In this document: positions 860 to 13,797 of the stretch, piece by piece
How the letters are laid out: each line of letters starts with the position of its first letter
Position numbering within the stretch: the first letter of the stretch is position 1
Assembly (NCBI RefSeq): GCF_025717005.1
Contig: NZ_JAOVZU010000009.1
Coordinates: forward strand, 124,001 to 188,000
Direction: 5' to 3'
DNA length: 64,000 nt
Source of the DNA: Actinotalea endophytica
GTDB taxonomy: Bacteria; Actinomycetota; Actinomycetes; Actinomycetales; Cellulomonadaceae
Translations under genes and position numbers: made by a program
The notes under the pieces: generated by a model
What the model was told of the DNA's origin: nothing
Seen by the model: the letters and a program-made list of their open reading frames with translations, nothing else
Database searches by the model: none

Positions 860-1819
860 ATGACGAGCTCTTCCGACGCCCTGAGGTCGGACCCTGCCCC
901 TACCCCACCCATCCCTGGCGCCGGGCCGGGCCTCCCGGTCGTCGACCGCGTGGACATCTCCGACGTCACCTTCAGCCTCGAGGTGCTCCATCCACAGATG
1001 GCGCGCGCCGCGCGGGCCGGCCAGTTCGTCATCGTGATGACCCACCCCGAGGGCGAACGGGTGCCGCTCACGATCGCCGACTTCGACCGGGACCGCGGGA
1101 CCGTCACGCTCGTCGTCCAGGCGGTCGGCAAGACCACCCGCGAGATGCAGCAGCTCTGCCAGGTCGGCACGGACCTGCACGGCATGGCCGGGCCGCTCGG
1201 CGTGCCGAGCACGATCGGCAGCGCGCGGACCGTGGTGTGCGTCGGCGGTGGGCTCGGGGTGGCGCCGGTCTACCCGCAGGCCCGCGCGTTCCACGAGCGC
1301 GGTGCGACCGTGATCGGCGTGCTCGGCTTCCGCAACGCCGACCTGGTGTTCTGGGAGGACAAGTTCCGCGAGGTGTGCGACGAGCTGATCCTGTGCACCG
1401 ACGACGGCTCGGCCGGCATCCAGGGCCTGGTCACCGACGGGCTGCGGCTCGCGCTCGAGCAGCACCCCGACGTGGCGGAGGTCGTCGCGATCGGACCGCC
1501 GGTGATGATGCAGGCGTGCGCCGAGGCGACCCGGCCGCACGGCATCAAGACGGTCGTCAGCCTCAACCCGATCATGGTGGACGGGACCGGGATGTGCGGC
1601 GGCTGCCGCGTCCGGGTGGGCGACCAGGTGCGCTTCGCCTGCGTGGACGGGCCGGACTTCGACGGCCACGCCGTCGACTTCGCCGACCTCCGCTCCAGGC
1701 TCGGTCGCTACCGCGGCGAGGAGGCCCAGGCCCTGGACCACTGGTACCACGCGTGCCGGCGGGCCGAGAACGCCGTGGCCGACGACCTGATCCCGGCGCC
1801 GACCGGCCAGGGAGCGTGA
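860..1819 (+). CDS. NfnA/SudB-like FAD/[2Fe-2S] NAD(P)H:ferredoxin reductase subunit
   Basis: A 319-residue flavoprotein of the dihydroorotate dehydrogenase electron-transfer / NfnA family. The FAD-binding region includes VPLTIADFD (~60-75), the nucleotide-binding loop is VGGGLGVAPV (~125), and the C-terminal [2Fe-2S] site is DGTGMCGGCRV with Cys246, Cys249 and Cys261. The start is ATG 860, with GGAG just upstream; an upstream in-frame ATG at 803 would add a poorly conserved 19 residues. It is followed one base later by the GltD-like partner, and the two together resemble Nfn transhydrogenase or sulfide dehydrogenase SudAB. In those enzymes this subunit exchanges electrons with NAD(H). Here its neighbours are 2-oxoacid:ferredoxin oxidoreductase genes, so it probably links that enzyme to pyridine nucleotides. 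SudAB-type polysulfide reduction cannot be excluded. Confidence 0.85.
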   Translation: MTSSSDALRSDPAPTPPIPGAGPGLPVVDRVDISDVTFSLEVLHPQMARAARAGQFVIVMTHPEGERVPLTIADFDRDRGTVTLVVQAVGKTTREMQQLCQVGTDLHGMAGPLGVPSTIGSARTVVCVGGGLGVAPVYPQARAFHERGATVIGVLGFRNADLVFWEDKFREVCDELILCTDDGSAGIQGLVTDGLRLALEQHPDVAEVVAIGPPVMMQACAEATRPHGIKTVVSLNPIMVDGTGMCGGCRVRVGDQVRFACVDGPDFDGHAVDFADLRSRLGRYRGEEAQALDHWYHACRRAENAVADDLIPAPTGQGA

Positions 1820-1820
1820 C

Positions 1821-3392
1821 ATGGCCAAGCGAACCATCCGCAGCATCCCGCAGGACCGAACCCCGGTCCGCGAGCAGCCCGCCGCCGAGCGGATCGGCAG
1901 CTTCGACGAGGTGAACCTCGGCTACGACGCCGACGAGGCCGCCCGCGAGGCGCAGCGTTGCCTGTTCTGCGCCGACGCGCCGTGCATGTCGGGCTGCCCG
2001 GTCTCGGTCGACATCCCGGAGTTCATCCGCAAGGTCTCCGACAAGGACGTCCAGGGCGCCTACGAGACGATCGCCCGGACGAACCTGCTGCCCGCCGTCT
2101 GCGGGCGGGTCTGCCCGCAGGAGTCGCAGTGCGAGAGCGTGTGCACCGTCGGCGGCGCCCTCGAACCCGTGGCGATCGGGCGGCTCGAGCGGTACGTCGG
2201 CGACCTGGCGATCAGCGAGGGCTGGTCGCAGCGTCCCTACGTGGTCCCGACCCCGTACCGGGTCGGCATCGTCGGGTCCGGCCCGGCCGGGATGGCCTGC
2301 GCCGCCGACCTCGCGAAGGCCGGCTGCCAGGTCACGGTGTTCGAGGCGCTGCACCTGGCCGGCGGCGTGCTGCGCTACGGGATCCCGGACTTCCGGCTGC
2401 CCAACGAGGTGATCGACGCCGAGATCGCGGCACTCGAGCGCCTCGGCGTCGAGTTCCGGACCAACACCGTGGTCGGCCGGCTGTTCACCGTCGAGCAGAT
2501 GGTCGACGAGATGGGCTTCGACGCGGTGTTCATCGGCACCGGCGCCGGCTACCCGACGATGCTCGGCATCCCGGGCGACTCGCTCGGCGGCGTGCTGTCC
2601 GCCAACGAGCTGCTGACCCGGGCGAACCTGATGAAGGCCCGGGACTTCCCGATGCACGACACCCCCATCCCGCTCGGCACCCGCGTCGCGGTGGTCGGCG
2701 CGGGGAACACCGCGATGGACGCGATGCGGGTCTGCCTGCGGCTCGGCGCCGAGTCGGTCCAGTGCGTCTACCGGCGTTCGCGGGCCGAGGCGCCCGCTCG
2801 CGCGGAGGAGCTGCACCACGCCGAGCAGGAGGGCGTCGAGTTCCACTGGCTGACCAACCCGGTCGCCGTGCTGGACGACGGCGAGGGCAACGTCCGCGGC
2901 CTGCGCTGCCAGCGCATGGAGCTCGGCGAGCCGGACGAGTCCGGCCGCCGGCGCCCGGTCCCCGTCCCGGGCAGCGAGTTCGCACTGCCGTGCGACCAGG
3001 TGGTCTTCGCGATCGGCACGAACGCCAACCCGATCATCGGGCAGACCTCGAAGCTCGTGCTCAACCGACGCGGCTACCTCCAGGTCGACGACGCCTTCGC
3101 GACCTCGATGGTGGGCGTGTTCGCCGGGGGCGACATCGTCACCGGTGCCGCGACGGTGATCGAGGCGATGGGTGCCGGGCGGAAGGCCGCCGCGAGCATC
3201 AAGCGGCACCTCGGCATCCGCGACACGAGCCTCTGGTACGACGACCCCGAGGGTGCACGGTTCGGGATCGCGGCGCACGAACGCAACTTCGTCCGTCTGC
3301 GCCTGGCCGAGCGCGAGCCGGCGTACTCGGCCGGACCCGCGTCGGGTGCCCCGACCGTCCCCTCGACCTCCACGGCGGTGACCGCACGATGA
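1821..3392 (+). CDS. NfnB/GltD-like FAD/[4Fe-4S] oxidoreductase subunit
   Basis: 523 residues. An N-terminal double [4Fe-4S] domain (CLFCADAPCMSGCPV at ~47-61 and CGRVCPQESQCESVC at ~94-108) precedes an FAD Rossmann domain (VGIVGSGPAGMACA, ~150) and an NAD(P) Rossmann domain (VAVVGAGNTAMDAM, ~290). This is the layout of glutamate synthase small subunit, NfnB and SudA. The closing FAD motif VGVFAGGDIVTGAATVIEAM is intact. About 55 residues beyond the usual end (after IKRHLGI) form a Pro/Ser/Thr-rich tail. No glutamate synthase large subunit is adjacent, so NfnB/SudA-like use is more likely than GltD. A GGGAG lies before ATG 1821. The stop codon overlaps the next start (ATGA), so translation is probably coupled. 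Confidence 0.9.
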   Translation: MAKRTIRSIPQDRTPVREQPAAERIGSFDEVNLGYDADEAAREAQRCLFCADAPCMSGCPVSVDIPEFIRKVSDKDVQGAYETIARTNLLPAVCGRVCPQESQCESVCTVGGALEPVAIGRLERYVGDLAISEGWSQRPYVVPTPYRVGIVGSGPAGMACAADLAKAGCQVTVFEALHLAGGVLRYGIPDFRLPNEVIDAEIAALERLGVEFRTNTVVGRLFTVEQMVDEMGFDAVFIGTGAGYPTMLGIPGDSLGGVLSANELLTRANLMKARDFPMHDTPIPLGTRVAVVGAGNTAMDAMRVCLRLGAESVQCVYRRSRAEAPARAEELHHAEQEGVEFHWLTNPVAVLDDGEGNVRGLRCQRMELGEPDESGRRRPVPVPGSEFALPCDQVVFAIGTNANPIIGQTSKLVLNRRGYLQVDDAFATSMVGVFAGGDIVTGAATVIEAMGAGRKAAASIKRHLGIRDTSLWYDDPEGARFGIAAHERNFVRLRLAEREPAYSAGPASGAPTVPSTSTAVTAR

Positions 3393-5290
3393 CCACGACG
3401 TCCGAGTCCGTCCCGCTGCCGGGTGCGCACCCGGCAGGTGCCGGCGCGCAGGTGACCACCGTCCCGGAGCACGTGGTGGAGATCATCAGCGACTCCGGCG
3501 AGGGTGCGCAGCGCTGCGGCCAGTCGTTCGGCGCGATCGCGGCGCGCACCGGCAACGGTGTGTGGACCGTCGAGATCATCCCTGCCGAGATCCAGCCGCC
3601 CGCCCGCAGCGTCGCCGGTGCGAGCGGCAACCGGGTGCGTCTCGGCTCGAGCCGGATCACCAACGGCGGGGACGCGGCCGACCTCGTGGTCGCGTTCAAC
3701 GAGCAGGTGCTGCTCGGCCGGGTGCACGCCAACGAGCTCAAGCCCGGCTGCACGATCCTGCTGGAGAGCATGTGGCGCGCCCACCGCAACCCGTCGATCG
3801 CGGCGTCCTACGCCGAGGCGTTCGACGCGCTGGTCGCGTCCGGCTACCGGGTCGTCGAGGTCCCGATGGAGCGGGAGTGCCGCAAGCTGGTGCCGGACAC
3901 GCGGCGCGGCAAGAACATGTTCGCCCTCGGGATGCTGTGCTCGATCTACCGGCTCGACCTCGACCTCGCGCGCGACCAGGTGGCGCTCACCTTCCGCAAG
4001 AAGACCCGAGCCCTGATCGAGACGAACACGCGGCTGCTGGTCGCGGGCTACGAGTGGGCCCGCGAGCACCTCGACCTCGCGTTCCACATCCCGGCCGCGC
4101 CTGCCGCGCAGGACCAGGTGGTCCTCAACGGCAACATGGCTCTCGCGCTCGGCGTCGTGGCCTCCGGCATGGAGGTCTGCTCGATGTACCCGATCACGCC
4201 GGCGACGTCCGCCTCGCACTACCTCAGCGAGATCTTCCCCAAGGTCGGCGGCGTGGTGCACCAGGCCGAGGACGAGATCGCCGCGTGCACCTTCGCGATC
4301 GGCGCGTCGTACGCCGGCAAGTGCGCCGTGACGATCACCTCCGGACCGGGCTACTCGCTCAAGCAGGAGGCGATCGGCCTCGCGGTGATGGCCGAGATCC
4401 CGCTCGTCGTGGTCGACGTGCAGCGTGGCGGACCGAGCACGGGGCAGCCGACCAAGGTCGAGCAGGGCGACCTGCTCACGACGGTCTTCGGCAGCCACGG
4501 CGACGCGCCGAAGGTGGTCATCGCGCCGAGCTCGATCGAGGACTGCTTCTACTCGGTGATCACCGCACGGCGGATCGCGGAGACCTTCAACATGGTGGTC
4601 GTCGTGCTGTCCGACGCCAGCCTCGCGACCGCGCAGCAGCCGTTCCCGCGCCCGGAGTTCGACCCCGCGTGGCTCGCCCCGCCGGTCGACCAGAGCCAGG
4701 TGCCCGAGGGCCTCGCGCCGTACGCCTGGGACGAGACCACCGGCCTGTCCCGACGCTTCGTGCCGGGTCAGCCGGGCGGCATGTACACCCTCACCGGCCT
4801 CGCGCACGACACCGCGGGCAGCGTGGCCTACGACCCGGACGCCAACGAGCAGGGTCTGCACGCGCGCAGCCTCAAGCTCGCTGCGCTGCAGCGCACGCTC
4901 ACCACGCCGACGGTGCACGGCGACGAGTCCGGCGACCTGCTGGTGATCGGCTGGGGCTCCACCAAGGGTGCGATCGAGGAGGCCGTGGACCGGGCCCGCG
5001 ACGACGGGCTGCGGGTGTCCTCGCTGCACCTGCGCTTCGTGAACCCGCTGCCCTCGGGCCTGAAGGAGATCATGGACCGCTTCGGCCGCGTGATGACCGT
5101 GGAGGGGAACTGGGGCGACCGGCCCGACGACCGGATCATCGACGAGTCGAACCGTCGGTACACCGCGCTCGCGATGCTGCTGCGCTCGCGCTACCTGGTC
5201 GACGTCGACTGCTGGAGCGAGGTCGGTGGCCAACCCCTCAAGCCCGGGCGGGTGCACCGGGTGATCACCAGGAAGCTGGGCCGGTCATGA
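3389..5290 (+). CDS. korA: 2-oxoacid:ferredoxin oxidoreductase, fused gamma-alpha subunit
   Basis: 633 residues. The gamma domain is N-terminal (SDSGEGAQRCGQSFG at ~34-48, with the AEIQPPAR loop), followed by the alpha pyrimidine-binding domain (LGVVASGMEVCSMYPITPAT, ~255-280) and the transketolase C-terminal-like domain (VIGWGSTKGAIEEAV, ~530). This gamma-alpha fusion with a separate beta subunit is the KorAB layout, which oxidises 2-oxoglutarate or a related 2-oxoacid with CoA and ferredoxin. Substrate choice between 2-oxoglutarate, pyruvate and branched 2-oxoacids cannot be read from these motifs. It overlaps both neighbours by 4 bp. Such oxygen-sensitive enzymes support fermentative or microaerobic metabolism, or replace the 2-oxoglutarate dehydrogenase complex in some actinobacteria. 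Confidence 0.88.
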   Translation: MTTTSESVPLPGAHPAGAGAQVTTVPEHVVEIISDSGEGAQRCGQSFGAIAARTGNGVWTVEIIPAEIQPPARSVAGASGNRVRLGSSRITNGGDAADLVVAFNEQVLLGRVHANELKPGCTILLESMWRAHRNPSIAASYAEAFDALVASGYRVVEVPMERECRKLVPDTRRGKNMFALGMLCSIYRLDLDLARDQVALTFRKKTRALIETNTRLLVAGYEWAREHLDLAFHIPAAPAAQDQVVLNGNMALALGVVASGMEVCSMYPITPATSASHYLSEIFPKVGGVVHQAEDEIAACTFAIGASYAGKCAVTITSGPGYSLKQEAIGLAVMAEIPLVVVDVQRGGPSTGQPTKVEQGDLLTTVFGSHGDAPKVVIAPSSIEDCFYSVITARRIAETFNMVVVVLSDASLATAQQPFPRPEFDPAWLAPPVDQSQVPEGLAPYAWDETTGLSRRFVPGQPGGMYTLTGLAHDTAGSVAYDPDANEQGLHARSLKLAALQRTLTTPTVHGDESGDLLVIGWGSTKGAIEEAVDRARDDGLRVSSLHLRFVNPLPSGLKEIMDRFGRVMTVEGNWGDRPDDRIIDESNRRYTALAMLLRSRYLVDVDCWSEVGGQPLKPGRVHRVITRKLGRS

Positions 5291-6273
5291 TCGACTTCAG
5301 TCGCGACGGCGTCGCCGAGTGCTTGCTCCGCCTCTACGACGAGCGGGTCGAGATCGAGGGGTTCCAGAAGGGCGTGCCGCGCTGGTGCGCCGGCTGCGGC
5401 GACAACGCGGTGCTCGCCGCGCTGCAGCGCCTGCTGCGCGACGAGGGGCTGCGCCCCGAGAAGACCGTGTTCGTCTCCGGGATCGGCTGCTCGAGCCGGC
5501 TGCCGCACTACATGAACACCTACGGCTTCCACGGCATCCACGGTCGCGCGCTGCCGGTGGCGGAGGGCATCCGGCTGGCCCGGCCCGACCTCAACGTCTT
5601 CGTCAACACCGGCGACGGCGACTCGTTCAGCATCGGTGCCGCCCACTGGCTGCATGCCATCCGCTACAACATGCGGATGGTCGTGATGGTGCACGACAAC
5701 CAGATCTACGGCCTCACCAAGAAGCAGGCCTCGCCGACCTCGCCCCGGGGCACCAAGAGCAACACGACGCCCCGGGGTTCCTACCTCGAGGGCCTCAACC
5801 CGCTCACCGTCACGCTCGGCGTGCAGAACGTCTCGTTCGTCGCGCAGGTCGCCGACTGGATCCCCGAGGTGCTGTACGACGTGATCCAGGCCGCCTTCCA
5901 CCACGACGGGCTGTCGTTCATCCGGATCGTCCAGCGCTGCCCGGAGTGGATGCCGGACAACTTCGACCGGTGGCTGCACGACCCGGCCAAGGTGACGCTG
6001 CTGCACCACCCGACGTCGCTGTCGATCAGTCCTGCCCTGGCGCGGCTCTACCCCAACCACCTCGAGCACGACCCGTCGAACATCCACCGGGCCCGCGAGC
6101 TCGCCTCGGTGCAGGACCCGGTGCCGATCGGCATCCTCTACCACGACCCGACCGTGCCGAGGTACGACGAGATCCTCCGGGCGGACGCGACCCACTCGGG
6201 CACCGCGGTGCGCCGGCTGCTCGACGCCGAGTTCGACAAGTTCGCGGTCCAGGGAGGTGGCACCCGTGTCTGA
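5287..6273 (+). CDS. korB: 2-oxoacid:ferredoxin oxidoreductase, beta (TPP) subunit
   Basis: 328 residues. The thiamine diphosphate/Mg motif is GDGDSFSIGAAHWLHAI (~113) followed by VMVHDNQIYGLTKKQASPTS, typical of KorB. Cys34 and Cys37 (RWCAGCGD), Cys68 (SGIGCSSR) and Cys218 (QRCPEW) match the four ligands of the single [4Fe-4S] cluster of this subunit. It pairs with the alpha subunit immediately upstream (ATGA overlap) to form the CoA-acylating 2-oxoacid dehydrogenase, which passes electrons to ferredoxin. The 3' end overlaps the next gene by 8 bp. That next gene carries its own ferredoxin-like domain and could be the electron acceptor. Confidence 0.9.
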   Translation: MIDFSRDGVAECLLRLYDERVEIEGFQKGVPRWCAGCGDNAVLAALQRLLRDEGLRPEKTVFVSGIGCSSRLPHYMNTYGFHGIHGRALPVAEGIRLARPDLNVFVNTGDGDSFSIGAAHWLHAIRYNMRMVVMVHDNQIYGLTKKQASPTSPRGTKSNTTPRGSYLEGLNPLTVTLGVQNVSFVAQVADWIPEVLYDVIQAAFHHDGLSFIRIVQRCPEWMPDNFDRWLHDPAKVTLLHHPTSLSISPALARLYPNHLEHDPSNIHRARELASVQDPVPIGILYHDPTVPRYDEILRADATHSGTAVRRLLDAEFDKFAVQGGGTRV

Positions 6274-8545
6274 GACCTTGCAGACCGACCGTGCGGCCGG
6301 GCCGGAGGGCCGCCCGGAACGGACCAGCTCGCAGGACCGGGCGTCGTTCTACCTCGCCGGTCACCGGATGCACACCCACCTCGGGGACGTCGCGTTCGGG
6401 CTCCGCTCGGCGCACTTCGCCCCGTTCCGGCGGCTCGACGAGCTGCGGTACGACTATCCGCTGGTGCTGGCCGACGGCGACGACGTGCACGGCACGATGA
6501 CGTCGCTGTCCGGTCTGGTCGACGACCTGCTGGCCCGGGTGGCCACCGGCGACGACGCGGACCGGCTGCGTCACCACGCGATGCTTCTCGAGCACGAGGT
6601 GCGGGTCCGCGCGAACGGCGGACGCGCCCGCCTGTCGGCGCTGTGGGACCAGGCGGTCGACGCGCTGGTCGCCGAGCACGGGTCGGACGACCTCGCGGAC
6701 AGCCTCGCGCGGCTGACCGTGGCCCGGGACGTCGACGGCGCCGTGGTGGCCTGCACCCGCGAGACCCCGCGGCACGTCGTCGGGCACCTGTGGCGGCTCG
6801 TCCAGCGTGAGCGGATGGGGCACCTCACGGCCAGGGTCGCGCGCCTGCGCGGCGCGCTGCAGGACATCCTGGACGCCGAGCAGGCCGACTCCCCGGCGGG
6901 GCTGGCCGCGGCCCGGCTGGCCGGGTCGTTGGGCCCGGTGGTCGGCGCGGAGGTGGACGCGGCGGCGCTGTCCCGGCTGCTCACCGAGAACCGGCCGAGG
7001 TTCGTGCTGCCGGACAGCCGGCGCGAGCGCGTCCAGGGGCTGCTCGACGTGCTCACCTCGCAGCGGTTCGTGCCGTGCGACCTGGAGGGCGGTCTCGAGG
7101 GCACCGAGCTGTACGGCTTCGAGTACACCGACGTCGGTGAGGCGATCGCGGCCTACCACGAGCGGTACGAGCCGACCGCGGAGCTCGCGAAGGCCCTCGT
7201 CGTGGCCGAGATGGAGGCCGACGGCCGCTACCGCGACGAGATCCACGACTCGCTCTTCGCGTCCTGGAGCGTCGCCGACCTGGACGCGGAGACGCTGGCG
7301 ATCTTCCCCGAGTACCTGGTGCGGGTGGACGCCGAGCAGATGAGCGCCGAGGAGAGCGTGGCCCTGCTCGAGGCGCTCGCCGCCGGCATCCCGCTCAAGG
7401 TGATGGTCCAGGTGAACGACCTGCTGCGGGGCTACTACCCGAGCGAGCGCCAGGCGCACAGCGGGGTGTCCGCCCGGATGCTCGCGAGCGCGGCACTGAC
7501 GTCCGGCGAGTCGTTCGTGCTGCAGTGCGCGAGCGCGGCGCTCTTCCACGCGCGCGACCGGATCATCGCCGGCGCGAGCGCGCCGGGGGCCGCGTTGTTC
7601 GTGGTCTACTCCGGCGAGGGGGAGTGGCTCGACGACCTGCCGCACTACCTGGCGTCGGCCGCGGCGATCGAGTCCCGCGTCTTCCCGTCGTTCTCCTACG
7701 ACCCGTCGGCCGGGGACACCTGGGCCGAGCGCTTCGCGCTGGCCTGCAACGTCCAGCCCGAGCGGGACTGGCCGGTGCACCGGCTCACCTGGTCGGGCGC
7801 CGACCTGCAGCGCGTGACGCAGGACGTGCCGTTCACCGCGGCCGACTTCTGGGCGTGCGACGCGCGGCTGGCGCCGCACCTCGCGGTCGCGGCGGAGGAC
7901 GGTTCGGACGGCACCGTGGTGCCGTTCGCCGAGCACGTCGCGGCCAACCCGGGGGCGTGGGCCGACGAGCTGCCGTACCTGCTGATGATCTCGCGTGACG
8001 ACCGGCTGCACCGCGTGCTGGTCGACCGGCCGCTGGTGCACATGACGCAGCGGAGCGTGGAGGCCTGGCGGCGGTTGCAGGAGCTCGGCGGCATCCACAA
8101 CTCGTACGTGACCCGGGAGCTCGCCTGGCAGCGCGAGGCGTTCGAGGCCGAGCGGGCCCGGTGGGCTGCCTCGGTCCCGTCCGCCACGACGGCGACGACG
8201 GCGCCGGGCGGGTCCGCGGCGACCGGCGGAGCCGGGGATGCGAGCGTGCCGGGCGCGACCGAGGTGGACGACCTCGGCGAACCCGACGCGCGCGACCCCT
8301 ACCTGCCGTGGATCGAGACCGCGCGCTGCGCGACCTGCAACGAGTGCACCGCGATCAACGACCGGATGTTCACGTACAACGACAACCGGCAGGCCTACAT
8401 CGCCGACCCGGACGCGGGGACGTACGCCGAGCTCGTGCTGGCGGCGGAGAGCTGCCAGGTCGCGATCATCCACCCGGGCCGTCCACGCAACCCGAACGAG
8501 CCCGGCCTGCCCGACCTGGAGAAGCGCGCGGAGCCGTTCGCGTAG
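6266..8545 (+). CDS. Large protein of unknown function with C-terminal ferredoxin-like domain
   Basis: 759 residues from GTG 6266. GGGAGG at 6252-6257 sits at good spacing; GTG 6257 is an alternative. Residues 1-~640 match no domain I recognise. They are mostly helical-looking, with a central conserved-looking stretch (ESRVFPSFSYDP, then ERDWPVHRLTW, ~470-510). A Ser/Thr/Ala-rich linker (~635-665) leads to a C-terminal domain with CATCNECTAIN and a later ESCQVAIIHPGR, i.e. Cys-x2-Cys-x2-Cys...Cys, the pattern of a single [4Fe-4S] ferredoxin. No signal peptide or membrane segment is seen. It is last in the NfnAB-KorAB-like operon and overlaps korB by 8 bp, so it probably works with that complex as an electron acceptor, scaffold or third catalytic component. 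That role is inferred from context only. Confidence 0.75.
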   Translation: MSETLQTDRAAGPEGRPERTSSQDRASFYLAGHRMHTHLGDVAFGLRSAHFAPFRRLDELRYDYPLVLADGDDVHGTMTSLSGLVDDLLARVATGDDADRLRHHAMLLEHEVRVRANGGRARLSALWDQAVDALVAEHGSDDLADSLARLTVARDVDGAVVACTRETPRHVVGHLWRLVQRERMGHLTARVARLRGALQDILDAEQADSPAGLAAARLAGSLGPVVGAEVDAAALSRLLTENRPRFVLPDSRRERVQGLLDVLTSQRFVPCDLEGGLEGTELYGFEYTDVGEAIAAYHERYEPTAELAKALVVAEMEADGRYRDEIHDSLFASWSVADLDAETLAIFPEYLVRVDAEQMSAEESVALLEALAAGIPLKVMVQVNDLLRGYYPSERQAHSGVSARMLASAALTSGESFVLQCASAALFHARDRIIAGASAPGAALFVVYSGEGEWLDDLPHYLASAAAIESRVFPSFSYDPSAGDTWAERFALACNVQPERDWPVHRLTWSGADLQRVTQDVPFTAADFWACDARLAPHLAVAAEDGSDGTVVPFAEHVAANPGAWADELPYLLMISRDDRLHRVLVDRPLVHMTQRSVEAWRRLQELGGIHNSYVTRELAWQREAFEAERARWAASVPSATTATTAPGGSAATGGAGDASVPGATEVDDLGEPDARDPYLPWIETARCATCNECTAINDRMFTYNDNRQAYIADPDAGTYAELVLAAESCQVAIIHPGRPRNPNEPGLPDLEKRAEPFA

Positions 8546-9188: not shown

Positions 9189-9614
9189 TCAGGCGACCGG
9201 CGTCACACCGAGCTCGCCGAGCAGGGCCTCGATCCGGCGGCGGATCTCGTCGCGGATCGGTCGCACCGCGTCGATGCCCTGACCGGCCGGGTCGTCGAGC
9301 GCCCAGTCCTCGTAGCGCTTGCCCGGGAAGACCGGGCACACGTCGCCGCAGCCCATCGTGATCACGACGTCCGAGGCCTGGACCGCGCCCGTGGTCAGCA
9401 CCTTGGGCTGCTCGGCCCGGATGTCGACGCCCTCCTCGAGCATCGCCTCGACCGCGACCGGGTTGATCTGGTCGGCGGGCATCGAGCCGGCGGATCGCAC
9501 CTCGACGGCGTCGCCGCCCAGGTGCCGCAGCCAGCCGGCGGCCATCTGCGAGCGGCCCGCGTTGTGCACGCAGACGAACAGCACGGACGGGCGGGTGGGG
9601 GTCGTGTCGGTCAC
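9189..9614 (-). CDS. arsC: Arsenate reductase, low-molecular-weight phosphatase type
   Basis: 141 residues starting at GTG 9614. The catalytic P-loop is VCVHNAGRSQMAAG (~11-24), a Cys-x5-Arg-Ser motif as in thioredoxin- or mycothiol-coupled ArsC. A downstream MGCGDVCPVFPGK supplies the extra cysteines needed for arsenate reduction rather than phosphatase activity, and DWALDDPAGQ is the acid loop. It reduces arsenate to arsenite in the cytoplasm. The start overlaps the stop of the upstream ArsR-phosphatase fusion (GTGA), so the two are co-translated. No arsenite efflux gene (arsB/acr3) lies in the window, so export must be encoded elsewhere. Confidence 0.92.
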   Translation of the reverse strand: MTDTTPTRPSVLFVCVHNAGRSQMAAGWLRHLGGDAVEVRSAGSMPADQINPVAVEAMLEEGVDIRAEQPKVLTTGAVQASDVVITMGCGDVCPVFPGKRYEDWALDDPAGQGIDAVRPIRDEIRRRIEALLGELGVTPVA

Positions 9615-10327
9615 GGGGTCTCCTCGGGGTCGGGGCGGACGGTGATGCGGGCGGGGTCGAGTCGGGGTGCCAGGTCGTCGACCCGGCGGCCGAGCTCGGC
9701 GATCGCCGCCTCGAACGCGGCGTCGCGACCGGCCGGGACCGGGTCGGGCACGGACCAGTGCGCGTCGGCGAGCCGTCCGGTCTCCTCGTGCGCGCGGTCG
9801 CACACCGTGACGACGAGGTCGGTCGCGGCGAGCACGTCCTGGACCGCGCGGGGCGGCTCGAGCGTCCCGAGGTGGTGCCGGGCCGCGGCGCGCGCCGCCC
9901 CGGGGGCGACGCTGCGCGCCGGGTGAGTGCCGGCCGAGGTGGCTGGCAGCGGGCTGGTCCGCCGCCAGAGCGCGGCCGCGAGCTGCGACCGTGCGGAGTT
10001 CGCGGTGCACACGAAGACGACCCGCTCGGGGGGGAGTGCCGTCGCGCTGCGGACCGGCACGAGCTCGGCGAGCGCGCCGGGCACGAGGCTCAGGTAGGTG
10101 CGTCGCCGGTCGCCCTCGGACCGGCGACGGCGCACCAGGCCGTGCTCGAGGAGCAGGTTGACGTGGTGGGCGAGCAGGTTGGACGTCATGCCGAGGGACT
10201 CGGCGAGCTCGGACGGGGACCGGTCGCTCCACGCGAGCAGGTCCACCACGGCGAGGCGCCCGGGGTCGCCGAGCACCGCGTGCAGCGCGGCGCGCCGCAC
10301 GACGTCGGCACTTTGGTCAGTGGTCAT
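9611..10327 (-). CDS. arsR: ArsR-family repressor fused to a low-molecular-weight phosphatase/arsenate-reductase-like domain
   Basis: 238 residues. Residues ~5-85 form an ArsR winged helix (ELAESLGMTSNLLAHHVNLL is the recognition region). Residues ~95-225 form an LMW phosphatase-like domain with VFVCTANSARSQLAAALW, whose Cys-x5-Arg-Ser loop is intact, and a VPDPVPAG acid loop. Such ArsR-ArsC fusions occur in actinobacteria. The second domain lacks the extra cysteine pair seen in the downstream ArsC, so it may sense rather than reduce. The start ATG 10327 sits inside a 46-bp palindrome. A predicted promoter (TTGCAC, 18 bp, GATCAT at 10340-10335) would start transcription at or next to the ATG, giving a leaderless message. 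Confidence 0.88.
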   Translation of the reverse strand: MTTDQSADVVRRAALHAVLGDPGRLAVVDLLAWSDRSPSELAESLGMTSNLLAHHVNLLLEHGLVRRRRSEGDRRRTYLSLVPGALAELVPVRSATALPPERVVFVCTANSARSQLAAALWRRTSPLPATSAGTHPARSVAPGAARAAARHHLGTLEPPRAVQDVLAATDLVVTVCDRAHEETGRLADAHWSVPDPVPAGRDAAFEAAIAELGRRVDDLAPRLDPARITVRPDPEETP

Positions 10328-12621: not shown

Positions 12622-13797
12622 ATGGCTGGCTCGCAGTCCGCCCTGCGCGAGGCGAACCGGGCGATGGTCGTCGAGACCATCCGCCGCTACGGGGGTCTCA
12701 CCCAGGTCGAGCTCGCCGCCGCCACCGGGCTGTCCGCCGCGACCGTGTCGAACATCGTGCGCGAGCTGCAGGGCGCGGGCGCGGTGGACGTGCGCACCAC
12801 GATCCGCAGCGGTCGCCGCGCCCAGCTCGTCACGATGGCGCGCGGCACGGGTCTCGCGGTCGGCGTGCACATCGGGGTGCGGCAGATGTCGCTGACCCTC
12901 GCCGACTCGGCCCACGAGGTGCTCATCGAGCAGAGCCTCCCGCTGCCGCACGAGCACCGCGCGGACACGAGCCTGGACCGTGCCGCGCTCATGGTCGTGG
13001 ACCTGCTCGAGCGGGTCGGCTCGTCGCTCGGCGAGCTGCTCGGGATCGGCATCGGGCTCCCCGCACCGGTCGACGTCGCCACCGGGACCATCTCGGTGCC
13101 CGGGATCCTGCGCGGCTGGGACGACGTCCCGGTGGCGCAGGTGATGTCCAAGCGGCTCGGCGTGCCGGTCTTCGTGGACAACGACGCGAACCTGGGTGCG
13201 CTCGCGGAGAGCCGGCTCGGCGCGTCCCGGCCATTCCAGGACTCGGTGTACGTCCGGGTCGCGCACGGCACGGGTGCGGGCATCGTGCTCGCCGGCCAGC
13301 TGCACCGTGGCTTCGCGGGAACCGCGGGCGAGATCGGCCACGTGCAGGTCGACGCCGCGGGGGACGTCTGCATGTGCGGCAGCCGGGGGTGCCTCAACAC
13401 GGTCACCGGTGGGCCGGCGCTGATCGAGACGCTCCGTGCCAGCCGCGGACCGCTCACGATGGCGGACATCATCGGCCTGGCCAGGCGTGGCGACCCGGGG
13501 TGCCGGCAGGTCGTGGGCGATGCCGGTGCGCTGATCGGCACCGTGGTCGCCGGTCTGGCGATCGCGGTCAACCCGCAGTGCGTGGTCGTCGGCGGCGAGC
13601 TGGCCGAGACCGGTGAGACCCTGCTGGCCCCGATGCGCGAGGTGATCCGCCGCCGCGTACCGCTGAACCACATCGCACCGCTCGAGGTGCTCAAGGCCGA
13701 GCTCGGCACGCGCGCCGAGTCGCTCGGCGCGGTGCTGCTCGTGCTCGAGAGCACCGACCTGTTGACCCACTGGTTCGACGACCAGACGGGGAGCTGA
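12622..13797 (+). CDS. ROK-family transcriptional regulator
   Basis: 391 residues from ATG 12622, preceded by GGGAGG. An N-terminal winged helix (~10-75; YGGLTQVELAAATGLSAATV) is followed by a ROK sugar-kinase fold with phosphate/ATP loops (VDNDANLGALAE ~190; VAHGTGAGIVLAGQ ~215). The zinc site CMCGSRGCLN is at ~250. The usual Glu of the ROK sugar site after the GC (GCLE) is Asn here, so binding may differ from canonical NagC/XylR. It overlaps functionally with the downstream sugar ABC genes and lies one base before the orphan ATPase, so it probably regulates monosaccharide uptake. The inducer is unknown. Confidence 0.88.
   Translation: MAGSQSALREANRAMVVETIRRYGGLTQVELAAATGLSAATVSNIVRELQGAGAVDVRTTIRSGRRAQLVTMARGTGLAVGVHIGVRQMSLTLADSAHEVLIEQSLPLPHEHRADTSLDRAALMVVDLLERVGSSLGELLGIGIGLPAPVDVATGTISVPGILRGWDDVPVAQVMSKRLGVPVFVDNDANLGALAESRLGASRPFQDSVYVRVAHGTGAGIVLAGQLHRGFAGTAGEIGHVQVDAAGDVCMCGSRGCLNTVTGGPALIETLRASRGPLTMADIIGLARRGDPGCRQVVGDAGALIGTVVAGLAIAVNPQCVVVGGELAETGETLLAPMREVIRRRVPLNHIAPLEVLKAELGTRAESLGAVLLVLESTDLLTHWFDDQTGS

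Follow-up and report, generated by a model that had tools for sequence, protein, structure and literature searches.

What joins an Nfn-like flavoprotein to a two-subunit 2-oxoacid oxidoreductase within a single operon, and what is the large fifth protein encoded with them? The question is raised by positions 860-8545 of a 64,000-nucleotide stretch of Actinotalea endophytica DNA (contig NZ_JAOVZU010000009.1, positions 124,001 to 188,000, referred to here as the window; host genome of 4.25 Mb in 20 contigs), where a five-gene plus-strand operon carries NfnA, NfnB, KorA, KorB and a protein termed X5, in this order. X5, recognised by no Pfam or NCBIfam model above cut-off, is now given a kinship: it is a homologue of the C-terminal half of a pyruvate:ferredoxin oxidoreductase (PFOR) of unusual length, thiamine pyrophosphate (TPP) domain included. 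On balance, sequence comparison somewhat favours an operon encoding one 2-oxoacid:NAD(P) oxidoreductase complex, in which X5 would be the electron link. An initial annotation of the window had proposed a dedicated complex moving electrons from 2-oxoacids to NAD(P)H, an interpretation that is partly supported by the results below.

Conservation of the five-gene operon

The five genes were confirmed to be one real operon. As initially annotated, they overlap or lie one base apart, with junctions of +1, -4, -4 and -8 nt (NfnA/NfnB, NfnB/KorA, KorA/KorB and KorB/X5, respectively). A single base separates NfnA from NfnB, ATGA overlaps occur at NfnB/KorA and KorA/KorB, and X5 starts at a GTG within its 8-nt overlap with KorB, immediately preceded by AGGGAGG.

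A scan of 84,980 species genomes was performed with two peptide patterns, both derived from X5 and therefore under-sampling distant relatives, and yielded 48 loci. All five genes were present in one order and on one strand in 33 of these, indicating that the operon is more than chance, and the complete loci span three phyla: Actinomycetota, Pseudomonadota and, in one metagenome-assembled genome (MAG), Acidobacteriota. Completeness was judged by fixed bit-score thresholds, and in L043 the X5 gene reaches the border of its contig. The remaining 15 loci comprised seven at contig ends (L022, L026, L029, L035, L037, L045, L051), six Gemmatimonadota loci of differing layout (L047, L048, L052-L055) and two broken loci, L042 without an Nfn match upstream and L049 with a truncated KorA and 200 N. 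The joining of Nfn-like and Kor-like enzymes in one operon, also noted in the initial annotation, is thus upheld both by family assignment and by conservation as a unit. Commonly scattered orthologues had been named there as a refuting result, and this was not what the loci showed: once Gemmatimonadota and contig-end loci are set aside, 35 are left, of which 33 are complete. In Gemmatimonadota the KorAB relatives stand beside Rnf-type genes, showing that the partner differs among relatives.

Carriers of X5 are sparse, being 3 of 19 genus genomes, 3 of 150 genomes in a family sample and 2 of 396 in a phylum sample, own genome included. Homologues of KorA (E<=1e-60) were found in 159 of the 396 phylum genomes, with at most three candidates scored per genome. 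Among the matches listed, only the two X5 carriers exceeded 41% identity (69% and 100%), the next match stood at 41%, and the other listed KorA proteins of the sample lay at 35-41%, G511 excepted. The loci were found via X5, and relatives of Kor and Nfn lacking X5 were looked for only inside the window's phylum. The five distance matrices, each covering the window and the 33 complete loci, correlated at 0.81 to 0.965 over their ten pairings, and 0 of 999 permutations reached any of these values. A joint tree of the same set intermixed Actinomycetota, Pseudomonadota and the Acidobacteriota MAG. Such a patchy distribution agrees with the unit having been transferred as a whole, with losses or MAG binning errors as alternatives.

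Homology of X5 to long PFORs

The fifth gene had been annotated as a new ferredoxin-fusion protein of unknown kind; comparison with hhalign and Foldseek instead identified a degenerate PFOR C-terminal half. The only Pfam match of X5 is to Fer4_13 and is sub-threshold (residues 684-736, 20.6 versus 24.5 bits), and there were zero NCBIfam matches at E<=0.1. A weak match in the own genome, a 1662-residue PFOR, provided the lead to PFOR kinship. Alignment of 39 X5 sequences against six long PFORs by hhalign scored 100% (E 1.4e-73) over X5 residues 40-756. Split tests, meant to exclude the ferredoxin as sole driver of the match, scored 100% (E 6.5e-41) for X5 without its ferredoxin and 97.4-97.9% for the TPP region by itself, and controls (X5 versus PFOR residues 1-700, KorA, KorB and NfnB) all remained at or below 1.3%. 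An AlphaFold model of X5 (pLDDT 85, pTM 0.76) returned 18 Foldseek matches at E<=0.001, all of them PFOR chains. A wholly new fold, considered as a candidate for X5, was ruled out by the PFOR homology found with both methods.

The motifs of the TPP domain have been lost from X5. The NTGG/YGLT and CxGCG motifs were found in 0 of 34 X5 segments, a GDG string occurred in 9 of the 34 at scattered positions, and only one PFOR cluster cysteine, aligned with C163, is retained, being invariant in 39 of 39 sequences. Lacking the TPP motif and the proximal [4Fe-4S] cysteines, X5 is not classed as a PFOR enzyme. The homology to the PFOR TPP domain would be the argument for X5 as a working TPP enzyme, but with these motifs missing from every segment and a single cluster cysteine left, such an activity is extremely improbable, and X5 as an active TPP enzyme was ruled out on the motif loss in 34 of 34 segments.

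The ferredoxin at the C-terminus of X5, in contrast to the degenerate body, is intact: all 39 rows of alignment A2 keep cysteines C688, C691, C694 and C730. A2 comprises P0005 together with 38 loci out of the 48 and omits L014, L043, L045, L047, L048 and L051-L055. In the motif check the ferredoxin fell outside the BLAST segment in L040, L041, L043, L046 and L050, and A2 shows it in L040, L041, L046 and L050. A linker of 36-75 residues, with a median Ala+Pro fraction of 0.50 versus 0.21 in the body (39 rows; 0.33 versus 0.19 in the window's own X5), precedes it. This layout is the anatomy of a swinging domain, from which we infer the movement itself. Coordinates are collected in Table 1.

Table 1. 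Genes of the operon and regions of X5 in the window.
Feature	Length	Positions	Strand	Assignment and basis
NfnA-like subunit (P0001)	319 aa	860..1819	+	FAD/NAD(P)H module; families, motifs, structure match
NfnB-like subunit (P0002)	523 aa	1821..3392	+	two [4Fe-4S] motifs, FAD/NAD(P)H domains
KorA (P0003)	633 aa	3389..5290	+	gamma-alpha fusion, 2-oxoacid:acceptor oxidoreductase
KorB (P0004)	328 aa	5287..6273	+	TPP/[4Fe-4S] beta subunit
X5 (P0005)	759 aa	6266..8545	+	pseudo-PFOR C-terminal half and ferredoxin
X5 residues 155-474		6728..7687	+	PFOR TPP-domain counterpart without TPP motif; hhalign 99.0%
X5 residues 476-612		7691..8101	+	homologue of long-PFOR C-terminal extension; hhalign 99.7%
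X5 residues 640-674		8183..8287	+	linker, low model confidence; AlphaFold model, composition
X5 residues 684-736		8315..8473	+	single-cluster [4Fe-4S] ferredoxin; Fer4_13 sub-threshold, alignment A2

KorAB, NfnAB and related systems

Every KorAB and NfnAB motif that was checked is retained. The window KorA exceeds the TIGR03710 cut-off (515 versus 483 bits), and KorB is above the cut-offs of PF02775 and PF12367 and below that of the curated TIGR02177 (237.7 versus 261.9 bits). Structure-database and alignment comparison showed both to resemble two-subunit 2-oxoacid oxidoreductases, the best solved match of KorA being 6n2n_A, a Magnetococcus enzyme titled 2-oxoglutarate:ferredoxin oxidoreductase. 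KorA contains YPITP from residue 267 and the carboxylate Arg R346, while KorB contains the cluster cysteines C34, C37, C68 and C218, GDGD from residue 109 and DNxxYGLTK, each present in 34 of 34 (the window and the 33 complete loci). The four KorB cysteines, KorB R71, KorB L143 and KorA R346 are likewise invariant. The GIGCS pattern was found in 28 of 34 KorB proteins; the remaining six carry GIGCA, with the cysteine retained.

NfnA was assigned to NF004862 (366 bits, cut-off 220) and PF10418, and NfnB to TIGR01316 (580 bits, cut-off 472), PF14691 and PF07992. The best solved matches were 5jca_S, P. furiosus NfnI (E 2e-88), and 4ylf_B, T. maritima NfnB (E 1e-159), respectively. NfnA carries ERxPxT from residue 66 and the [2Fe-2S] motif DGTGMCGxCRx10CV from residue 241, and the two [4Fe-4S] motifs of NfnB start at residues 46 and 95. 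In the alignment with 4ylf_B, numbered manually, NfnB R192 corresponds to Arg187 of the T. maritima protein, a residue given a role at the bifurcating flavin in an excerpt of PMC6405883. Motif definitions were taken from the same excerpt with spacers relaxed slightly and a x13Gx2ER tail left outside the check; the NfnB patterns were RCx2Cx4Cx3CP, GRVCPQExQCx3C and the Arg at b-FAD N5 (FRLP Arg). All five Nfn checks (flavin strand, [2Fe-2S], two [4Fe-4S] and bifurcating-flavin Arg) gave 34 of 34, the check covering flavin and cluster motifs, not NAD/NADP-binding residues. Both subunits, the nfnA-nfnB order and all motifs tested are therefore shared with NfnAB of known structure (4ylf, 5jca), from which the present pair differs in being tied to a 2-oxoacid oxidoreductase and a dedicated ferredoxin domain.

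Known systems that pair KorAB with an electron-accepting subunit differ in composition. Azoarcus evansii KorABC, which we take to consist of KorAB and its own nicotinamide-reducing flavoprotein, a single NADP-reductase subunit, without NfnA and without a PFOR-derived ferredoxin subunit, contrasts with the two Nfn subunits and X5 found here. In H. pylori OorDABC (8ys5), presumably a four-subunit 2-oxoglutarate oxidoreductase of KorAB and a small ferredoxin-like subunit without Nfn, the small ferredoxin subunit occupies the place of X5, and Nfn is an addition of the present operon. A 2-oxoglutarate dehydrogenase complex (SucA-type E1, lipoyl E2 and E3) was considered and rejected on the family matches: SucA and lipoyl-E2 families were absent among the matches listed for the five operon proteins (Pfam/NCBIfam), and NfnB matched the E3 model TIGR01350 weakly (44 bits, cut-off 409), as is usual for flavoproteins. 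The two-subunit 2-oxoacid:ferredoxin oxidoreductases (OFORs; S. tokodaii StOFOR, Magnetococcus marinus 6n2n and mycobacterial KorAB) share the fused gamma-alpha KorA and a KorB with TPP and one [4Fe-4S] cluster, the internal ferredoxin being absent, and differ in that KorAB is operon-bound here to NfnAB and a PFOR-derived ferredoxin subunit. Such enzymes occur in aerobes, according to excerpts of PMC5020499 and PMC2773412. Among the literature matches listed, no title or abstract opening describes the five-gene set or an X5-type protein, subscription papers being mostly outside the scope.

At two loci (L017 2-4369 and L024 1-4202) a second Kor set (GltD-like, KorA, KorB; ~28-36% identical) lies directly upstream of the operon, an arrangement we take to be reminiscent of Azoarcus KorABC.

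The own genome encodes a further pairing of Nfn with a 2-oxoacid enzyme. On contig C16 (L056 6709-14540, minus strand), the 1662-residue PFOR, which carries a ferredoxin at its C-terminus, precedes an NfnB-NfnA fusion in a second, two-gene operon, the gene order being as in Pattern C in an excerpt of PMC6405883; the Figure 2 legend of that paper, as excerpted, places PFOR among nfn neighbours. It is to the C-terminal half of PFORs of this type that X5 is homologous. The C16 enzyme has intact TPP motifs; in X5 the corresponding half is dead, and the chemistry would fall to KorAB.

In Gemmatimonadota the layout is KorA-KorB-U-RnfB-like-long PFOR-RnfC (L053 119-13967; similar in L047, L048, L052, L054 and L055), with further Rnf genes of L053 read by eye. 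Family matches confirmed RnfC_N and an RnfB-type FeS domain in L053 and PFOR domains in L048, the rest being assigned by eye, and the locus stretches examined gave no Nfn match. The 2-oxoacid enzymes of this cluster are apparently wired to an Rnf pump. Protein U, encoded after KorB, is likely kin of X5 on the basis of its hhalign match (92.9%, E 3.8e-7), versus only 7.3% to long PFOR; two U proteins tested gave zero Pfam matches, and Foldseek gave none at E<=0.001 (PFOR third, E 0.12).

Proposed electron route, substrate and alternatives

From gene context and motifs we infer a physical complex, its substrate, its direction and bifurcation. KorAB would bind the 2-oxoacid, most likely 2-oxoglutarate, together with CoA, and oxidise the 2-oxoacid, freeing low-potential electrons via TPP and [4Fe-4S] that would exit at the KorB cluster. 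In X5, with TPP binding presumably lost, the PFOR-derived body may serve as a scaffold holding the arm in place, while the ferredoxin on its flexible linker would swing between the KorB cluster and the distal NfnB cluster. NfnAB would then pass electrons to and from NADP(H) and NAD(H), probably through confurcation or bifurcation, making NADPH, perhaps with oxidation of NADH; in the reverse direction, NADPH could drive reductive carboxylation. As a whole, the complex would be a reversible, ferredoxin-independent coupling of 2-oxoglutarate/succinyl-CoA to NADPH. Bifurcation within the complex has about one chance in three. The full proposal, a ferredoxin-independent bifurcating 2-oxoglutarate dehydrogenase/synthase in which the tethered ferredoxin of a PFOR-derived pseudoenzyme would move back and forth from KorAB to NfnAB, is a tentative possibility.

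Several results weigh against this proposal. The distance correlations are also expected from common descent alone. The N-terminal 330 residues of X5 reached just 55-74% against PFOR in hhalign, and the Foldseek TM-scores of X5 against the 18 PFOR chains were 0.16-0.23 (query-normalised), with a root-mean-square deviation of at least 10 A. Relatives of KorAB in Gemmatimonadota, accompanied by Rnf-type genes and a full PFOR, indicate that KorAB need not work with Nfn. Around the operon of the window itself, no tricarboxylic acid cycle gene could be recognised, the adjacency to gltA is a raw count without comparison to chance, and the acetate--CoA ligase near the operon in L008 (NCBIfam) would suit pyruvate equally. 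KorB has Arg at the position of S. tokodaii K49, and the E1 of 2-oxoglutarate dehydrogenase is present in most carriers, leaving the need for a second system in doubt.

2-Oxoglutarate is favoured as the candidate substrate by neighbouring genes for citrate synthase, succinate dehydrogenase (sdh), malate dehydrogenase (mdh) and sucA. Across 41 loci clustered with a home-made gene caller (some genes missed or mis-started), a citrate synthase cluster lies near the operon in seven (Kiloniellaceae, Betaproteobacteria) and SdhA/FrdA-type genes in four. NCBIfam confirmed two of the citrate synthases, the sucA adjoining the operon in L027, and one each of SdhA and malate dehydrogenase; other neighbours were named by clustering or by eye, among the matches listed. 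The residue check for 2-oxoglutarate specificity comprised KorB R71 only (34 of 34), the rest of the case being gene context. Pyruvate as the substrate of a pyruvate synthase for acetate assimilation is rather unlikely: it would suit the PFOR descent of X5, the L008 locus, where an acetate--CoA ligase lies upstream, and the L006 locus, where an AMP-ligase frame (by eye) adjoins X5, and is opposed by the gltA/sdh/mdh/sucA neighbours in Kiloniellaceae and Betaproteobacteria and by the title of 6n2n. The Arg at the K49 position also points to pyruvate, the S. tokodaii K49R change having favoured it (PMC5020499, excerpt), and is found in the H. pylori and M. marinus proteins as well (alignment). 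Replacement of the host's ordinary 2-oxoglutarate dehydrogenase, a candidate prompted by the gltA/sdh neighbours, draws on the position beside gltA and, in L027, sucA, and on the absence of any E1 match (TIGR00239) in 4 of 39 carriers (L019, L020, L034, L044). It is nevertheless very improbable and was rejected as a general role since E1 coexists with the operon: of 39 carrier genomes, 35 have some E1 match, 33 of them above cut-off, and all three genus carriers score above it too; the search in the 39 covered the own genome and those of 38 of the 48 loci (omitted: L026, L029, L045, L047, L048, L051-L055).

Other readings concern how the five proteins work together. The complex may form without bifurcation, as a plain 2-oxoacid:NADP+ (or NAD+) oxidoreductase whose functional parallel would presumably be the Azoarcus evansii 2-oxoglutarate:NADP+ oxidoreductase, a reading that is possible though on the unlikely side. 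It agrees with Nfn homologues that show no NAD+-dependent activity, such as P. furiosus NfnII (PMC6405883, excerpt), but NfnA would be superfluous in a simple reductase and the tested Nfn motifs, the FRLP Arg at the bifurcating flavin included, are retained throughout. It is unlikely that the five proteins are co-expressed yet separate, with KorAB reducing soluble ferredoxin, NfnAB sharing the pool and X5 acting as an extra carrier. Soluble ferredoxin is used by two-subunit OFORs without an internal ferredoxin (PMC5020499, excerpt), and NfnAB is free-standing elsewhere (PMC6405883, excerpt); however, the set is conserved as a unit, the KorA clade occurs only with X5 in the phylum sample among the matches listed, and the conserved PFOR-like X5 body of ~600 residues would be superfluous for a simple carrier.

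The carriers of the operon are, judging from organism names, presumably facultative and aerobic bacteria. If the proposed swinging-ferredoxin complex is correct, such bacteria could oxidise 2-oxoglutarate to NADPH, or fix CO2 into 2-oxoglutarate, with no need for a pool of free low-potential ferredoxin, and flavin-based bifurcation would be linked directly to a 2-oxoacid enzyme in organisms presumed to be oxygen-exposed. A dead oxidoreductase domain would then have gained a second use as a scaffold for electron wiring, and with its mobile ferredoxin it would resemble, in principle, the lipoyl arms of 2-oxoacid dehydrogenases. The physiological acceptor of mycobacterial KorAB was not identified, according to an excerpt of PMC2773412, and for related bacteria an integral NAD(P) route offers an answer of that kind which can be tested.

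Further neighbours were recorded. Downstream of the operon in the window (an unassigned gene, ArsR/phosphatase, TerC, ROK and ABC genes) no functional clue was found; the ArsR/phosphatase gene (9611-10327, minus strand) encodes an ArsR-type helix-turn-helix fused to an arsenate reductase-like domain of the low-molecular-weight phosphatase type. A SoxB (thiosulfate oxidation) cluster lies near the operon in 5 of 41 loci (L012, L013, L014, L016 and L018, the last confirmed by NCBIfam), and these count as about one event since all fall in one close clade of six rows. X5 of L030 is followed by a gene for a Crp/Fnr-family regulator (12631-13359), which may hint at control by oxygen.

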